Below, piece after piece: positions 20,262 through 53,937 of a stretch of 56,379 bases of DNA. The notes beneath the pieces were generated by a model. The model searched no databases. It was not told the origin of the DNA and saw nothing but the letters and a program-made list of their open reading frames with translations. The stretch lies in assembly GCA_029012085.1 (NCBI GenBank), contig JAQXLK010000117.1, forward strand, positions 1 through 56,379, written 5' to 3'. A program made the translations under genes and the position numbers. The DNA comes from Clostridiales bacterium (GTDB lineage Bacteria; Bacillota; Clostridia; Lachnospirales; Lachnospiraceae). Positions within the stretch are counted from its first letter, which is position 1. Each line of letters opens with the position of its first letter.

Positions 20262-21098
20262 TTACTGTAATAAGTTAAGTACACCCTGAGTAGACTGGTT
20301 AGCCTGTGTAAGCATGGACTGTGCAGCCTGCTGTAAAATATTATTCTTACTGTAGTTAACCATCTCTGTTGCCATATCGGTATCACGGATACTTGATTCA
20401 GCAGATGTCAGGTTCTCTGAATAATTCTCTAAGTTATTAATTGTATATTCTAATCGGTTCTGAATCGCACCAAGTAATGATCTCTGTGCAGATACATGCT
20501 TGATAGCAGACTGAATCTTACTAATTGCAATAGAAGCATTCTTTCCAACATTCGTTGTTCCCTTTGCTGCTGTAACCTTAACAGATGCAAGACCAAGCTT
20601 TTTAAGAGAAGTTCCACTAATGGTAATCTTCAATATCTGACCTGCATTAGCACCTACCTGTAACTTCTTACCGGATGCCATAGAACCATCTAACAACTGG
20701 GTTCCGTTAAATGCTGCTTTTTTCGTAATGGAACAAATCTCCTGCTTTAACTGCTGAATCTCATCATCAATGGTTTTACGATCTTCAGATGCATTAATAT
20801 CATTACGAGCCTTAATTGCCAATTCACCCATTCTCTGTAAAATAGAATGTATCTCATTCATATTACCTTCTGCTGTCTGAATAAGAGAAATACCATCCTC
20901 TGCGTTCTTCACTGCCTGATTCAGACCTCGAATCTGATTTCTCATCTTCTCGGAAATAGAAAGTCCTGCCGCATCATCTGCTGCACGGTTTACCTGATAA
21001 CCAGAAGATAACTTCTCAGTTGACTTCGCTACTGCCTTTACGTTCTGTCCTAATACTCTGTTTGTATTTGCCGCCTGCATGTTGTGTCTTACTATCAT
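20262..21098 (-). CDS. Flagellin A (short type)
   Basis: This 278-aa flagellin has only the D0/D1 parts that build the filament core. The N-terminal helix region (MIVRHNMQAANTNR, KSTEKLSSGYQVNRAADDAA, GISLIQTAEGNMNEIHSILQ) and the C-terminal region (SLLGAIQNRLEYTINNLENY, ending STQGVLNLLQ) are complete. They are joined by only about 60 variable residues (about 140-200). No D2/D3 outer domains are present. It is nearly identical to flagellin B over both ends, so the pair is a recent duplication or kept alike by gene conversion. It has a strong SD, a SigD promoter and a leader with CsrA-like hairpins. Ser/Thr-rich stretches in the middle are candidate glycosylation sites for Maf. Confidence 0.97.
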   Translation of the reverse strand: MIVRHNMQAANTNRVLGQNVKAVAKSTEKLSSGYQVNRAADDAAGLSISEKMRNQIRGLNQAVKNAEDGISLIQTAEGNMNEIHSILQRMGELAIKARNDINASEDRKTIDDEIQQLKQEICSITKKAAFNGTQLLDGSMASGKKLQVGANAGQILKITISGTSLKKLGLASVKVTAAKGTTNVGKNASIAISKIQSAIKHVSAQRSLLGAIQNRLEYTINNLENYSENLTSAESSIRDTDMATEMVNYSKNNILQQAAQSMLTQANQSTQGVLNLLQ

Positions 21099-21115
21099 AA
21101 TAATTCCTCCTTGAC

Positions 21116-21131
21116 ATCAAATCCGTTTGAT
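21116..21131 (-). promoter_or_regulatory. Candidate CsrA-binding hairpin in flagellin A leader
   Basis: On the minus strand ATCAAA and TTTGAT form a 6-base-pair stem with the loop CGGA. A GGA in a hairpin loop close upstream of an AAGGAGG ribosome site is the standard CsrA target arrangement. A further AAGGA lies about 10 bases upstream. Confidence 0.6.
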
Positions 21132-21194
21132 ATATTATCCTTTTAATTTATTGTCATCGGAACTCAAATCCATTTTTATTCCTTTATGTTATAT

Positions 21195-21221
21195 TTATCG
21201 GCACCCTTTTTCAGAACTTTA
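21195..21221 (-). promoter_or_regulatory. SigD promoter of flagellin A
   Basis: TAAA, 15 bases, GCCGATAA on the minus strand, a perfect consensus match. It gives a leader of about 90 bases before the flagellin A start. Confidence 0.9.
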
Positions 21222-21273
21222 TAGCAATTTATAAAAAAATTTAATTTTTTATGCATTCTTTCTGCAACGCAAA

Positions 21274-21297
21274 AAGAACCGGCATAAACCGGTTCTT
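21274..21297 (-). terminator. Terminator after flagellin B
   Basis: A 9-base-pair GC-containing stem (AAGAACCGG and complement) with a 6-base loop is followed by a short T-run on the minus strand. It lies 28 bases after the flagellin B stop. Confidence 0.85.
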
Positions 21298-21324
21298 CTT
21301 GTCAATAATCCTAAAACTTTAAGA

Positions 21325-22173
21325 TTACTGAAGTAATGATAATACACTCTGGTTAGACTGGTTAGCTTGTGCAAGCATTGACTGAGCAGCCTGCTGCAGA
21401 ATATTGTTCTTGCTGTAGTTAACCATCTCTGTTGCCATATCAGTATCTCTGATATTAGACTCAGCAGATGTTAAGTTCTCAGAGTAGTTCTCCAGGTTGT
21501 TAATTGTGTACTCAAGACGATTCTGAATTGCACCAAGTAATGAACGCTGTGCAGATACATTCTTGATTGCAGACTGGATACGTCTAATGGCAACAGATGC
21601 ATTCTTACCAATATTGTTTCCAGTAGCTTTCTTAACAGTAACATCCTTTAAGTTCAATTTGCTTAATGATGTACCACTGATTGCAATATTCATAGTCTCG
21701 CCTGCCATAGCACCTACCTGCAGTTTCTTTCCAGAAGAAGTTGCAGTCTTAGCCATATCACCATTTAACAACTTGGTACCATTGAATGCAGCTTTTTTTG
21801 TAATAGAGCAAATCTCGTTCTTCAACTGCTGAATCTCGTCATCAATTGTCGTACGATCTTCTGAAGCATTGATATCATTACGAGCCTTGATTGCCAATTC
21901 ACCCATTCTCTGAAGAATAGAATGAATCTCATTCATGTTACCTTCTGCTGTCTGGATAAGAGAAATACCATCCTCAGCATTCTTAACTGCCTGGTTAAGA
22001 CCACGAATCTGGTTTCTCATCTTCTCGGAAATAGAAAGACCTGCTGCATCATCTGCTGCACGGTTTACCTTGTATCCGGAAGATAACTTCTCTGTTGACT
22101 TAGATACAGCCTTCACATTCATACCTAACATTCTGTTTGTGTTTGCTGCTTGCATGTTGTGTTGTACTACCAT
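21325..22173 (-). CDS. Flagellin B (short type)
   Basis: This 282-aa flagellin is the upstream member of the tandem pair. The N-terminus (MVVQHNMQAANTNR, STEKLSSGYKVNRAADDA) and C-terminus (RSLLGAIQNRLEYTINNLEN, ending QSVLSLLQ) are almost the same as in flagellin A. Differences concentrate at about residues 138-190, where four extra residues and a different Lys/Thr-rich stretch occur. It has a strong SD inside a small hairpin, a second GGA hairpin upstream, and a SigD-like promoter about 150 bases before the start. It is secreted with FliS as chaperone and is probably glycosylated. Confidence 0.97.
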   Translation of the reverse strand: MVVQHNMQAANTNRMLGMNVKAVSKSTEKLSSGYKVNRAADDAAGLSISEKMRNQIRGLNQAVKNAEDGISLIQTAEGNMNEIHSILQRMGELAIKARNDINASEDRTTIDDEIQQLKNEICSITKKAAFNGTKLLNGDMAKTATSSGKKLQVGAMAGETMNIAISGTSLSKLNLKDVTVKKATGNNIGKNASVAIRRIQSAIKNVSAQRSLLGAIQNRLEYTINNLENYSENLTSAESNIRDTDMATEMVNYSKNNILQQAAQSMLAQANQSNQSVLSLLQ

Positions 22174-48286: not shown

Positions 48287-48754
48287 TTACACCGAATAGT
48301 CATGTCCTCCCATGCTGCTTTCCACAAGACCATGAGTACCATAGGTAAGTCCGGCATATACCTTCTCACTTTGTTCCATGACCGGTCCTGCCTTGTCGGT
48401 GTCCGCAATTTTCTGAAAGCTCTCATGAAACTTTCCAAGCATTTCCCTGCATCTTGAAAGCTCCTGTGGCTCTCGCTTTATCTTTGACTGAATTAACAGC
48501 TTATTAATATATGCAAATACAGAAAACATATCTACCGCAACCGGATTCTCCATATTAAGAACATTCATCAATTCTACCTGTGTACCTTGAGCCTTGCTGA
48601 CACAATCAAGGAATTCCTCTGTATTGCCTGCATCGTAAGAAGAAACCGCCTCTTGTATCCATTGCATTTCCATCTCTAACATAATTACTGTCAGCTCTGC
48701 AATTCCAGCCTGGGTAATTCGTAGCTTATATCCATTCATTTCTTCCGTTGTCAT
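48287..48754 (-). CDS. Divergent FliS-like chaperone (FliS2)
   Basis: This 155-aa protein aligns by pattern with FliS though identity is low. ITQAGIAELTVIMLEMEMQW matches the ATPEELTLMLYEGAIKF block. DAGNTEEFLDCVSKAQGTQV, then ELMNVLNMENPVAVDMFSVF, matches the KAQNII.ELQ.TLNFD block. A Gly/Ser/His-rich tail of about 40 residues (GLTYGTHGLVESSMGGHDYS) is added. It follows flagellin C with repeat copy R4 between, and one operon ends at 48.2 kb. It is probably the private export chaperone of flagellin C. Confidence 0.8.
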   Translation of the reverse strand: MTTEEMNGYKLRITQAGIAELTVIMLEMEMQWIQEAVSSYDAGNTEEFLDCVSKAQGTQVELMNVLNMENPVAVDMFSVFAYINKLLIQSKIKREPQELSRCREMLGKFHESFQKIADTDKAGPVMEQSEKVYAGLTYGTHGLVESSMGGHDYSV

Positions 48755-48847: not shown

Positions 48848-50239
48848 CTACCTCTGGAACAACTGCAGCAATCCTTCCGGTCTGGCATTCGATTTTGTAA
48901 GCATCTGCAGCGCACTCTGACTTAATACATTCTGCTGTGTATATTCAGTAATTTCATCTGCCATGTCTGTATCCATAATACGGGAAACCGCACTTGTCAG
49001 ATTCTCATTTGCAGTTTCCAAATTGGTTACTGTATATTCCAAACGGTTCTGAAAAGCACCAAGTGAAGATCGGATAGTGGAAATCCGGTCAATGGCTTCA
49101 TCTAAACGTTCAAGCGCCTCTGAAGCGTATCCATTTGTATACAAATTAATCTTTTCAATATTAAGGGAATCTGCTGTTGTTTTTCCAATGTTAACATTTA
49201 ACGTCTGTCCCTCGTTATCACCAATCTGAAATACCATCGGACCTGCCGAAAGCACAGTAATATTTACATTTCCCGCTGCTGCTCCCTCAGCGATATCATA
49301 TACCATCTTAAATCCATTCTTATCCGTTACCGTCACACGGTTTCCCTGGGTCTCAATTGTAGCAGTATCCTGAAAACCAATCTTTTTACCAGTCTTTGCA
49401 TCCGTTGAAAATTCAACGTTTGCATTACGCCCATATTTTATCATATCTGTCACACCAAGCAGATTCTTCAAATTATCATTATCGGATTTAATTGCAATAT
49501 GCTGCTGGGTTCCGTATTCCTGTGTGACAAGTTCCTTTGTAGTACTATCATAATCAATCCCGATTTTACAGATAGCATCACGAATCGCAGCACCTACTTG
49601 AGTTCCCGTCATTCCTGCCGAAATTTTAATTTCAAAATCATTGATTACTAAAGTGCCTGCCTGTGCCTCTGTAACAACCTCTCCGTCTGCCGGCATGCTT
49701 ATTGACTTTCGTGCCGGTGCTCCAATCGTCTTAATCGTAATACCATACTCACCCGGTGAAATATCTCCACCAATCTCTGCAATTTTCAAATCATCGTTAT
49801 CCGTATACCCCTTCTTATTCAGCTCACCATTTAAAAGACTTCTTCCGTTGAAATCCGTGGTCTCCGAAATACGGTCTAATTCATCCTTTAACTGCTCAAT
49901 CTCCGCCTGCATGGCATTCCGGTCTGTCACATCATAGGTTTCATTTGCAGCCTGTACTGCCAGTTCACGCATTCTCTGCAAAATAGAATGAATTTCATTC
50001 AATGCTCCCTCTGCCGTCTGAATCAGAGAAATACCATCATTTGCATTCAGCTCTGCCCGTTCCAATCCTCTAATCTGTGTCTGCATCGTTCTGGAAATCG
50101 CTTTACCAGCCGGATCATCAGAAGACTTATTGATTTTATATCCTGATGATAAACGCTGCATGGATTTCGTCAAATTGTTATTGATAGTATTCAGATTATT
50201 CTTAGCTGCATAAGCCATTGTATTGTGGTTTAATCTCAT
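48848..50239 (-). CDS. Flagellin C (long type)
   Basis: This flagellin of about 463 aa has canonical ends (MRLNHNTMAYAAKNNLNTIN, QRLSSGYKINKSSDDPAGKA and QSALQMLTKSNARPEGLLQL). It also has an outer domain of about 180 residues (about 165-345), so it must build a thicker filament surface than flagellins A and B. The start at 50239 is chosen because GGAG stands 8 bases before it; a GTG three codons earlier has no site. It has its own SigD promoter and its own FliS-like partner. It is not a simple duplicate of A or B; ends differ at many positions. Confidence 0.95.
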   Translation of the reverse strand: MRLNHNTMAYAAKNNLNTINNNLTKSMQRLSSGYKINKSSDDPAGKAISRTMQTQIRGLERAELNANDGISLIQTAEGALNEIHSILQRMRELAVQAANETYDVTDRNAMQAEIEQLKDELDRISETTDFNGRSLLNGELNKKGYTDNDDLKIAEIGGDISPGEYGITIKTIGAPARKSISMPADGEVVTEAQAGTLVINDFEIKISAGMTGTQVGAAIRDAICKIGIDYDSTTKELVTQEYGTQQHIAIKSDNDNLKNLLGVTDMIKYGRNANVEFSTDAKTGKKIGFQDTATIETQGNRVTVTDKNGFKMVYDIAEGAAAGNVNITVLSAGPMVFQIGDNEGQTLNVNIGKTTADSLNIEKINLYTNGYASEALERLDEAIDRISTIRSSLGAFQNRLEYTVTNLETANENLTSAVSRIMDTDMADEITEYTQQNVLSQSALQMLTKSNARPEGLLQLFQR

Positions 50240-50359
50240 AATCGTCACTCCAATCCTGCTGTTTCTTTATCTGAACTCCCTTTCCATGAAAAACAGCTTC
50301 TGTTCCTAGTGACGGAACTCCTTTTCCAAGCTCACTTATTTCTCAAGTTTTTCTCTACC

Positions 50360-52927
50360 TTAATTATCGGCTGCAACCCCTGTTAACTTAATAGCTGTCA
50401 GTAGTTGTTTTGCAACTCTGTACAATTTAGAAACCGGCATTTCCTCCTCAGACGCATCTCCATAAAGCATCGGTTTTGTACCATCTAAACGCAAATCTCT
50501 CACTTCTAATCCCCCTTTTGCGAAAACGGAGCGAAGGGTTAATTCATTTCTTTCTAATACGAGCTGACCGCTCTCTTCCTCTGTGGTAATATATCCTTCA
50601 ATCTGATTTCCTTCCACTCTCACAAAAGCTTCTAACCGTCCGTGCTTCGGAGTCTGCATCGTTGCAGTAATCTCCCCTGCATTACTGCCATCCTTTACCA
50701 CGGAAACCTTCATGATACTTACATTCCCATCTACCACTAACGGAATCCGGAACTCATCCTGCTCTACCGCCCGCATGGCAACCGGCATACCGGCATTCAA
50801 ATACTTAAGCGCCTGAATGTCCATGGCAGTTATTGTACCATCCTTTTCCTTGTCATGTACCGCCTCAGACAGTGCGGAGCGAAGATTTTCCATGGAATAA
50901 ACTACATCTGCCTTGCTTTCTAAATTTTCAAGCATACTCTCTTCCTGCTTTGTAATCTTTTCCCGCCACGGTTCAGACAGCTTCTGCTTAATCCCTCTCA
51001 CCATACCATAAATGCCATCCTCACCATACATCACCTGGTGAACAGCAATCATGTTGGTAGCCGTCTTTTGTAATTCACTTGCATCTAACATTGTTGCCAC
51101 CTCTTCCTCATAAGAAAGAGCTTTTTGCAACGTCTGATTAATATCCTCGAACAGTTCAGCCTGGCCCATATCATTGTCACCAGCCTTCATCCATGCATTC
51201 AGTTCTTCAAAAGACATATTCTGATAATCCGCACCTTCTAAACTCTTTAACGTTTCCGGTCTTATATGGCGCAAAATGCTGCCTGTCAGAGTCTGATTAT
51301 AAGCCGTATTAATCTGATTTAAGATTCCCCTTTCCGAAGAATCTACATTTACACGTTCACCAAAACTGTCATCCACACCCACATTGATTCCCCGTGCCTT
51401 CCGGCTCTTATCTGCCGCAAACAGATTATTCAGGGTTATTTCCTGACCATTGCGCACTACGGCACCTATATCCTTTCCGTGGGATTTTTGTACCTTGTCA
51501 AGCAGACGGTAAATACCAATGAAGCTGGTTCTCTCTTCCTCCGTGATGGCATTATTTCGGTCCATTTGATAAAGAAATTCCGAAAATTTCTGCTCATCCG
51601 TAATACCACGTATCTCCCGTTGCTGCATAATCTCTTCATTCAGTCCATCCACTGTCATGTTAAGAGGATTCTTATTCTCCCGAATCAGGTTTAATACAAT
51701 CTGCGGTGTCAGCGTTTCAAACATCTGCTGTACTTTTGCATCTGCCTCCTTTATACTGGCAATGTTTTTTCCGGTCAGTTCCATCTCATTGTATGCCAGA
51801 ATACGGACCGCCCGCTGATTTTCTGCATTACGGTCCAAATCCATCTCCTCTAAAATTGCATCCACATTCTGAAATGCTTCCGTCATGGAGTCACCCATAT
51901 CCTGGCGTGGTTTTGTCATCATGGTTTCATAGGCATTTCCTACAAGCACTGCTTTCATACGACTTGCCGAAGTATGCAGTTCTCCAACTGTGATGGACGG
52001 ACGTTTTACCATTTCCCCAAGGGCAAAAGCCGGTAAATTCTTTAACTCATCGGTTTCCTTTAATGTCTCCTTTAGCAGGTCTACATTCTCCGGAATATCA
52101 TGAAGGTCATGACTCGACACCACATTTTCATAGTAATCATTCTCCTGTTGCCGCAGAAAATCCACAATATCCGATAATGGCTTTGCATCAATATTAAAGT
52201 CTTTTCTTACCAGCCGTACTGCTGCTTCTAATGTCATGGAAAGACGTATTTCCTCTAACTGACGTCTGCCTGCAACAGCTGCCGGATGCATGGATAAAGG
52301 AACACCATTTTTTCCCGTTGAATCACCATTTTGTACAGCACCACTTAAGGATAGACTTGCACCTTCCACACCAGTATTCACCGGTCCACGAAGTCTTCCC
52401 ACATCTATACTGCGAAGTGCATGGTTATACAAACAGGAAATTGTAAGTGGTTTTCCCTGTGCCACTGCACTATCCACTGTCCGGTCAGAAATCCCCTTCA
52501 CTTTCTCCAGTAACTGCCGCGCACGTTCCTGCATGGTACTGCCACTGATACGTGCCTGCTCCGGCGGATTGTCACAGGCAATCTGTTCTTCAATATTCTC
52601 TCTTGCCTGAGCCTCCGAAAAACCTCTTTGGTTTAAGGCATTTACCGACATATACAATCTCAAGGAATCCACCGTTATGGGCAGTTCATGTGTCAGCATA
52701 AATTTTGCTCCATTTATGCTTTGGTCTCCCACTGTAATTCCTGCTGCTTCAATAATTCCAGTTACCTGTGGATATATATCATTCCATACCTGCTCGCTAA
52801 ACGGCAGAATCTGGGAAGGACTTGATTCATTAACACTGTTCTTCGCTGTACAGATGTTTTCAATTGTTAAATCCATTCCATTCTTAATCAGATATATCAT
52901 CTGCTCTTCACTGATATCCACAGGCAA
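50360..52927 (-). CDS. FliK-like protein, C-terminal part of a split gene
   Basis: This 855-aa reading frame continues in the same frame as the gene upstream (52979-53839), separated only by a TAA and 17 sense codons. A TTG is the only nearby start and has no ribosome site. The protein carries recurring short units of the form x-(L/I)-T-(I/V)-x-x-(L/I): MDLTIENI near 17, LPITVDSL near 82, KPLTISCL near 159, PSITVGEL, QEITLNNL. The last 150 residues (VDGNVSIMKVSVVKDG, ATMQTPKHGRLEAFVRVEGN, ITTEEESGQLVLERNELTLR) look like the FliK hook-length-control C-terminal domain. It may match the family I recall as DUF6240 (unsure). Confidence 0.7.
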   Translation of the reverse strand: MPVDISEEQMIYLIKNGMDLTIENICTAKNSVNESSPSQILPFSEQVWNDIYPQVTGIIEAAGITVGDQSINGAKFMLTHELPITVDSLRLYMSVNALNQRGFSEAQARENIEEQIACDNPPEQARISGSTMQERARQLLEKVKGISDRTVDSAVAQGKPLTISCLYNHALRSIDVGRLRGPVNTGVEGASLSLSGAVQNGDSTGKNGVPLSMHPAAVAGRRQLEEIRLSMTLEAAVRLVRKDFNIDAKPLSDIVDFLRQQENDYYENVVSSHDLHDIPENVDLLKETLKETDELKNLPAFALGEMVKRPSITVGELHTSASRMKAVLVGNAYETMMTKPRQDMGDSMTEAFQNVDAILEEMDLDRNAENQRAVRILAYNEMELTGKNIASIKEADAKVQQMFETLTPQIVLNLIRENKNPLNMTVDGLNEEIMQQREIRGITDEQKFSEFLYQMDRNNAITEEERTSFIGIYRLLDKVQKSHGKDIGAVVRNGQEITLNNLFAADKSRKARGINVGVDDSFGERVNVDSSERGILNQINTAYNQTLTGSILRHIRPETLKSLEGADYQNMSFEELNAWMKAGDNDMGQAELFEDINQTLQKALSYEEEVATMLDASELQKTATNMIAVHQVMYGEDGIYGMVRGIKQKLSEPWREKITKQEESMLENLESKADVVYSMENLRSALSEAVHDKEKDGTITAMDIQALKYLNAGMPVAMRAVEQDEFRIPLVVDGNVSIMKVSVVKDGSNAGEITATMQTPKHGRLEAFVRVEGNQIEGYITTEEESGQLVLERNELTLRSVFAKGGLEVRDLRLDGTKPMLYGDASEEEMPVSKLYRVAKQLLTAIKLTGVAADN
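50364..50390 (-). promoter_or_regulatory. SigD promoter of flagellin C
   Basis: TAAG, 15 bases, GCCGATAA on the minus strand. The -10 is part of the last codons (Ala-Asp-Asn) of the upstream gene. The leader of about 115 bases contains six or more GGA motifs. Confidence 0.75.
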
Positions 52928-52978
52928 ATTCTGTTTGCCATTCTTGTCCAGATTGCCCGCGTCAGATGCTACACCTTT

Positions 52979-53839
52979 TTATCCATTTTCTGCTACCACA
53001 CTATTCCCGTATCCAGACATTCCTTTTTTGGTTTGAGCATCAGCCTGTTTTACCGGCCTGGTCACCACATAACCCTCACTATTCAAATTACTGGTCATTA
53101 CCGCCGGTTCTTCCCCTTCTAACACCTCCGGCACATCCGGTTCTTCAAACTTGCCTGTATCCGGCGCAACTGCTTCTTTTATTTTACTGAGGGTAGACTC
53201 CACAATATCACTTAACACTTCATTCATCTCATCCTGATGCTCATTGGATCGGATGGTAATCACCATTCCCAGCAAATCAGAAAGTGTTGCATTCGTAACA
53301 TCAATCTGCATCATCCGAAGCTTCGCAATCTCTTCCGGTGAAATACTTCTAAGAATCTCCTTCTGATTTTCCTTCGCTTCTTCCTCATCCATGGCACCAT
53401 CCAAATTTTCTTTCAGCATATCTGAAAACTGCTCTGTACTTTGCATAATCTGAGCTGCGGAAGCTGCCTCAAGAGGTGCAGCATCCGTATCTAACATACC
53501 CGAAATATCTCCATCCTCTTTTTCCAGACTTCCCACTCCCACAATCTTAAGAGACACCTGATTCTTGTCTGCCTTCTGAATCTTTAAATAAACCGTATCC
53601 CCTTCTTTTGCATTTTCAAGGCTCTTCTCTGCTCTGGTCTTTAACTGAATACCATTGATATCCAGCACCGGCTCCTTCCCGCCCTTTACAAGCTTACAGG
53701 CAAGCAAATCCCCTACACTATTCCGGCTCAATATACTGCTGCCCGACTGACTGCCATTTTTTGCTGCACCGACACCGATACTACCTGTGCTGCCAAACAT
53801 CCCATTATTCTGATTATTACCACCTACCTGATAATTCAT
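52979..53839 (-). CDS. FliK-like protein, N-terminal part of a split gene
   Basis: This 286-aa part holds a Gly/Asn/Ser-rich start, then a beta domain at about 42-105 (DLLACKLVKGGKEPVLDING, LENAKEGDTVYLKIQ). It resembles the N-terminal domain of clostridial FliK proteins. A helical part follows, with one unit (IDVTNATLSDLL near 180) of the repeat type found in the next reading frame. The last 50 residues look like a flexible linker, so the frame ends without a domain boundary. Ribosome site GGGGTGG is acceptable. It should be read together with the downstream frame. Confidence 0.75.
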   Translation of the reverse strand: MNYQVGGNNQNNGMFGSTGSIGVGAAKNGSQSGSSILSRNSVGDLLACKLVKGGKEPVLDINGIQLKTRAEKSLENAKEGDTVYLKIQKADKNQVSLKIVGVGSLEKEDGDISGMLDTDAAPLEAASAAQIMQSTEQFSDMLKENLDGAMDEEEAKENQKEILRSISPEEIAKLRMMQIDVTNATLSDLLGMVITIRSNEHQDEMNEVLSDIVESTLSKIKEAVAPDTGKFEEPDVPEVLEGEEPAVMTSNLNSEGYVVTRPVKQADAQTKKGMSGYGNSVVAENG

Positions 53840-53885
53840 GGTGCCACCCCGCTTCTTTCTATAATTATATTAACAATCAATATCA

Positions 53886-53912
53886 CTAATTAATATGTCG
53901 GAAAATGCATAG
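53886..53912 (-). promoter_or_regulatory. Weak SigD-like site before the FliK-like gene
   Basis: TAGA, 14 bases, TCCGACAT on the minus strand, about 50 bases before the start. It has two mismatches in the -10 and one in the -35, so the call is tentative. Confidence 0.35.
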
Positions 53913-53937
53913 CTTTTCTAAAGATTAGAATAAGAAA

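Follow-up and report, generated by a model that had tools for sequence, protein, structure and literature searches.

A private stop codon in a DUF6240 gene with a FliK-like C-terminus, upstream of flagellin in a draft clostridial genome

The split frame and its neighbours

The window (the whole stretch of DNA analysed, 56,379 nucleotides) is all of contig C117 of a draft Lachnospiraceae genome. On its minus strand one frame runs from 53839 to 50360: 286 codons, a TAA at 52981-52979, then 872 codons and a second TAA. A flagellin gene and a gene for the FliS chaperone follow. The features discussed below are:

53895..53920, minus strand: putative sigma-28-like promoter, TAGA-N15-CCGACAT; CCGACAT recurs upstream of the gene in relatives
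53845..53850, minus strand: ribosome site of the gene, GGGGTG (GAGGTG in relatives)
52979..53839, minus strand: the split gene's first part, of 286 codons, with a beta domain at the N-terminus and helices (secondary structure as modelled for an intact relative), ending at the TAA
52979..52981, minus strand: the in-frame TAA, found in this genome alone
52910..53107, minus strand: hypervariable linker holding the TAA, limits approximate, drawn from the congener alignment and the model of the intact sister protein
50360..52978, minus strand: second part of the split gene, open for 872 codons in the frame of the first part, then TAA
51422..52258, minus strand: DUF6240 domain (PF19753)
50492..50695, minus strand: Flg_hook-like (FliK C-terminal, substrate-specificity-switch) domain, a PF02120 match under the curated cut-off, with Foldseek matches to 2rrl and 5cuk
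48848..50248, minus strand: flagellin gene, 466 aa, directly downstream of the split gene (PF00669 and PF00700)
48287..48754, minus strand: FliS chaperone gene (PF02561, E 2.1e-14)

Two shorter flagellin genes (278 and 282 aa) lie in tandem at 20262-22173 of the window, apart from the 466-aa gene.

A sequence-only reading of the window had described a FliK-like gene split by a single in-frame TAA, with a whole protein of about 1160 aa. The split is where that reading placed it, and the frame comes to 1160 codons in all. The same reading saw a recurrent x-L-T-I-x-x-L unit in both halves; this holds for one of them. In its strict form, [LIVM]T[ILV]xx[LI], the unit occurs six times in the second part, against 0.4 expected by shuffling, and never in the first.

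In the alignment of congeners the stop falls after the N-terminal domain and before the first of the conserved helical units, in a stretch of variable length and letters. Conservation resumes a few residues past this linker and continues through the second part; at the other end, the start of the first part, M[ND]YQ, is kept across congeners. When the intact sister protein is modelled with AlphaFold, pLDDT stays below 50 over residues 258-327, and the linker around the stop is probably disordered. Mean pLDDT of that model is 55.6, so the full-length model was used for disorder and layout only.

A DUF6240 protein with a FliK/PscP-like C-terminus

The second part matches DUF6240 over 275 of 276 profile positions (E 9.3e-97; 324.1 bits against a cut-off of 26.6). 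Pfam gives no function for this domain, and its name was not met in the literature searched; a search on FliK and hook length in Lachnospiraceae returned nothing on topic, as judged by the listing. NCBIfam gave nothing useful for the split gene.

The FliK-like C-terminus proposed by the sequence-only reading is supported by several lines. The Flg_hook match of the window copy itself is weak (PF02120, E 6.8e-4; 19.8 bits, curated cut-off 29.8); among intact relatives, all 17 scanned match this profile at E <= 0.1, the best at 4e-7, and 6 of the 22 congener copies exceed the curated cut-off. For a C-terminal model, Foldseek ranks 2rrl, the C-terminal domain of FliK, first (probability 0.99, E 0.03) and 5cuk, the substrate-specificity domain of PscP, second (probability 0.93, E 0.04). 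Neither this model nor the full-length model of the intact sister gave a fold match at E <= 0.001. A profile search of solved structures returned nothing but a pair of designed TIM barrels, matched over 26 residues, which were taken as chance. When intact, the gene encodes a DUF6240 protein whose C-terminal domain is FliK/PscP-like.

The gene is a single frame in relatives

Among the other genomes of the genus, 22 of 25 have the gene (G003, G006 and G008 lack it), and in all 22 it is one open frame of 1124-1187 codons with zero internal stops. In the rest of the order it is present in 26 of 34 genomes: 23 copies are single frames of 908-1203 codons, and three (G026, G040 and G059) lie at contig ends, the frame being seen to run off the contig in the first two and inferred to do so from position in the third. 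In 196 genomes sampled from the class, five further members turned up, all within the same taxonomic family and with frames of 974-1077 codons, bringing the non-congener copies from the order to 31, of which 28 are single frames and the other three are those at contig ends. Outside the order, the same sample yielded weak, mostly partial matches in 23 genomes (best E 5.2e-12; 13 over the cut-off). Stops in other tblastn matches do not mark gene breaks, as each fell upstream of the start of the window frame or on an antisense frame.

As every complete copy in the relatives searched is a single frame, the TAA is seen in this assembly only: it is private among these relatives. What relatives share is an uninterrupted frame of about 900-1200 codons (a description drawn from them, not Pfam's); the window gene departs from this, and is a broken copy of a DUF6240 member. 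The sequence-only reading had left open whether homologues elsewhere are one gene or two. No two-gene arrangement occurs in the 22 congeners, which points to mutation or error.

Expression signals and translation past the stop

Decay of the gene's expression signals was considered and rejected: the promoter-like element is present, and the energy of the ribosome site lies within the range of relatives. CCGACAT occurs in 18 of 23 upstream regions, that of the window included (18 of the 21 in which 250 nt are present), where single-base shuffles predict 0.11; in nine of these 18 it is preceded by TAGA at N15. The combined element agrees at 9 of 11 positions, with two mismatches, with the sigma-28 consensus TAAA-N15-CCGATAT as quoted in PMC3720852. 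It also differs from TAAA-N16-CCGATAA, which stands before the flagellin gene at 20262-21098. The ribosome site, GGGGTG, is one base off the GAGGTG of 22 relatives, and its pairing (-13.6) falls between their extremes of -12.9 and -15.5. Both signals look usable, and the gene is perhaps expressed late, from a sigma-28-like promoter.

The ribosome that reaches the TAA is a different matter. Seventeen sense codons separate the stop from the first ATG, GTG or TTG, a TTG at 52927; the first ATG, at 52900, is in frame, 27 codons downstream of the stop. Pairing energies were computed with an assumed 16S tail sequence. The TTG pairs at -4.1 kcal/mol, a strength equalled by 44% of random sites, and the ATG at -4.7 kcal/mol, equalled by 38%; the median of random sites is -3.6 kcal/mol. 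Sixteen start sites in the window taken as genuine, the split gene's own among them, span -7.3 to -13.5 kcal/mol. The earlier remark that the TTG has no ribosome site is thus borne out, and extends to the ATG.

These energies bear on the idea that reinitiation, or an unseen internal start, yields the second part as a protein in its own right, the gene having become two working genes in this species. The second part is indeed as constrained as in the intact sister, the break lies in a flexible linker, where splitting would cost least, and the in-frame ATG lies 27 codons on. Against this, both candidate starts pair close to background and well below the genuine-type starts, and the relatives searched offer no split copy. 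Moreover, the second part would be without an N-terminus, which is the site of the export signal in Salmonella FliK (PMC6972891). We give this idea little chance.

Readthrough to a full-length protein has even less to recommend it. It would explain why the second part is intact, with conservation from shortly after the linker, and a programmed event would be expected to leave a conserved stop; 0 of 22 congeners has a stop at this place. TAA is generally the least leaky of the stop codons. Bypass by frameshift fares no better, as a stop comes after 3 codons in one of the alternative frames and after 6 in the other. That the stop is read through is exceedingly improbable. Overall, readthrough, frameshift bypass and reinitiation, the alternatives raised by the sequence-only reading, find no positive support in the neighbouring frames, the ribosome-site energies or stop conservation.

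Taken as written, the sequence would yield an N-terminal fragment of 286 residues. With no usable start soon after the stop, the cell would not produce the part that carries the DUF6240 and switch-like domains. The fragment would presumably be non-functional, and the interruption would amount to loss of function.

Age and origin of the stop

Identity to the nearest intact relative, the sister genome G020, is 84% for the second part and 72% for the first. An outgroup allows the changes since the two diverged to be assigned, and the counts vary with the outgroup chosen. With L003, 847 columns of the second part show 45 changes in the window copy and 47 in the sister, and 232 columns of the first part show 15 and 17; columns in which all three differ were left out (47 and 25, respectively). 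With four outgroups the corresponding counts are 16 and 18, and 3 and 5; with 21 outgroups, 5 and 3, and 1 and 1. Both parts are evolving no faster than in the intact sister. Between window and sister, the second part has dN 0.10 and dS 1.5, a ratio of about 0.07 (NG86, with dS close to saturation), and contains no further stop.

Lack of acceleration in either part leaves three accounts: a very young stop, an erroneous one, or continued production of the second part. If the second part has been unselected since the stop arose, rough arithmetic would date the stop to within roughly the last hundredth of the period since the sister split off. Continued translation would fit the clean sequence, which is equally expected in that case, yet we hold it unlikely because there is no start signal.

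It is plausible, if the less favoured of the two forms that the preferred reading can take, that the stop is a consensus or assembly error. (This form lies within the preferred reading, and its likelihood overlaps with that of the whole.) The assembly is a draft of 407 contigs, 91.6% complete and slightly contaminated (7.99%), and neither part of the gene has decayed. On the other side, the TAA sits 3.4 kb away from the contig end, and no other break was seen among the genes compared with the sister genome. When 466 kb of the sister genome were compared with 408 kb of this one, taking genes comparable at at least 60% identity, one of 55 genes (18,989 aligned residues) was interrupted, and it was this gene; the reverse comparison gave 0 of 55. 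Stretches of four other relatives gave 57 comparisons and four interruptions, all four being this gene. Breaks are therefore not widespread in the sampled part of the assembly, a mild point in favour of a real mutation, although one event cannot decide; a real nonsense mutation is somewhat more likely than an assembly error.

Not the hook ruler

One proposal of the sequence-only reading was that a nonsense mutation of recent date, or a sequencing error, had struck the hook ruler. The first half of this proposal stands, since the gene is one frame in all 22 congeners; the second does not, as an intact fliK lies elsewhere. Two other Flg_hook proteins of the same genome score over the cut-off. 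One is the product of this fliK (490 aa, on C285), which precedes flgD and flgE in a flagellar operon that we read as fliF-fliG-fliH-fliI-fliJ-x-fliK-flgD-x-flgE-motA-motB; Pfam was run on fliK, flgD, the small frame between them and flgE, and the remaining names are our own, assigned from sequence. The other is a FliK-like protein of 599 aa (L052:6663-8462, on G000:C290). It adjoins a short frame (G000:C290:6399-6614) that matches only the C-terminal part of FlhB, an arrangement that we take to be of the YlqG/FlhX type. A congener protein that resembles the 599-aa type by size and score (G010:C83, a 613-codon frame) has a weak DUF6240 match (E 3.2e-4).

This is not peculiar to one genome: all 23 genus genomes with a DUF6240 gene, this one included, also have a much better-scoring Flg_hook protein (E 6.1e-17 or better), the neighbours of which were examined in our own genome only.

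That the split gene is the hook ruler FliK, broken, would agree with its FliK-like C-terminal domain and with its order of N-domain, linker and C-domain. It is very unlikely nonetheless, given the intact FliK in the flagellar operon and the better Flg_hook protein in 23 of 23 genomes with the gene. The place expected of a ruler gene, in the hook-basal-body operon near flgD and flgE, is held by that other FliK. The split gene instead adjoins flagellin and has a late-type promoter element, whereas FliK acts prior to hook completion (PMC6972891). For reasons of place, length and the presence of another FliK, the split gene is not the hook ruler; the DUF6240 protein is a third FliK-type protein of the cell.

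Linkage to flagellin and a possible role

The gene keeps close company with flagellin. In all 22 congeners a flagellin start lies 33-188 nt downstream of it. In the wider order a flagellin adjoins the gene in 22 of 26 holders, by our reading, lying upstream in a few and, in G026, across two contig ends; of the others, three carry the gene at the end of a contig (G031, G040 and G059), and G052 has no adjoining flagellin among the matches listed. The association also holds genome by genome. DUF6240 is found in 48 of 59 relatives (own genome excluded), and all 48 have flagellin; of the 11 relatives without it, two have clear flagellins (G003 and G051) and one a weak match (G008). Fisher's test on these counts, own genome included (49/0/2/9), gives p 4e-9, ignoring kinship.

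Taken together, it is very probable that the locus holds a private interruption, by real mutation or assembly error, of an otherwise one-frame DUF6240 gene that lies upstream of flagellin and is not the hook ruler. A further suggestion, which we put forward as doubtful but worth stating, is that the intact protein is a late-expressed, filament-stage switch protein, resetting or tuning flagellar export once the hook is complete. If so, this genome would represent a naturally occurring loss of it, with changed export of the filament. A private stop in a draft genome is ordinary as such; the interest lies with the intact family to which the gene belongs. A FliK-like switch-domain protein beside flagellin across an order of Clostridia points to a putative step in flagellar export.

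Comparison with known systems

As a member of DUF6240 (PF19753), the window gene has the total length and layout of its relatives; it differs in being interrupted, as no other copy was seen to be. The family's C-terminus is like the FliK C-terminal (Flg_hook) domain and the substrate-specificity domain of PscP, matching PF02120, 2rrl and 5cuk. The 599-aa protein of C290 shares the Flg_hook domain with the DUF6240 protein, but has no strong DUF6240 domain and, by sight, no flagellin among its neighbours. In Salmonella FliK (PMC6972891) a flexible linker stands between an N-terminal ruler, which includes the export signal, and an FlhB-binding C-terminal domain; the DUF6240 protein resembles it in this succession of N-domain, linker and C-domain. 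It differs in length, at nearly three times the 405 residues of Salmonella FliK.
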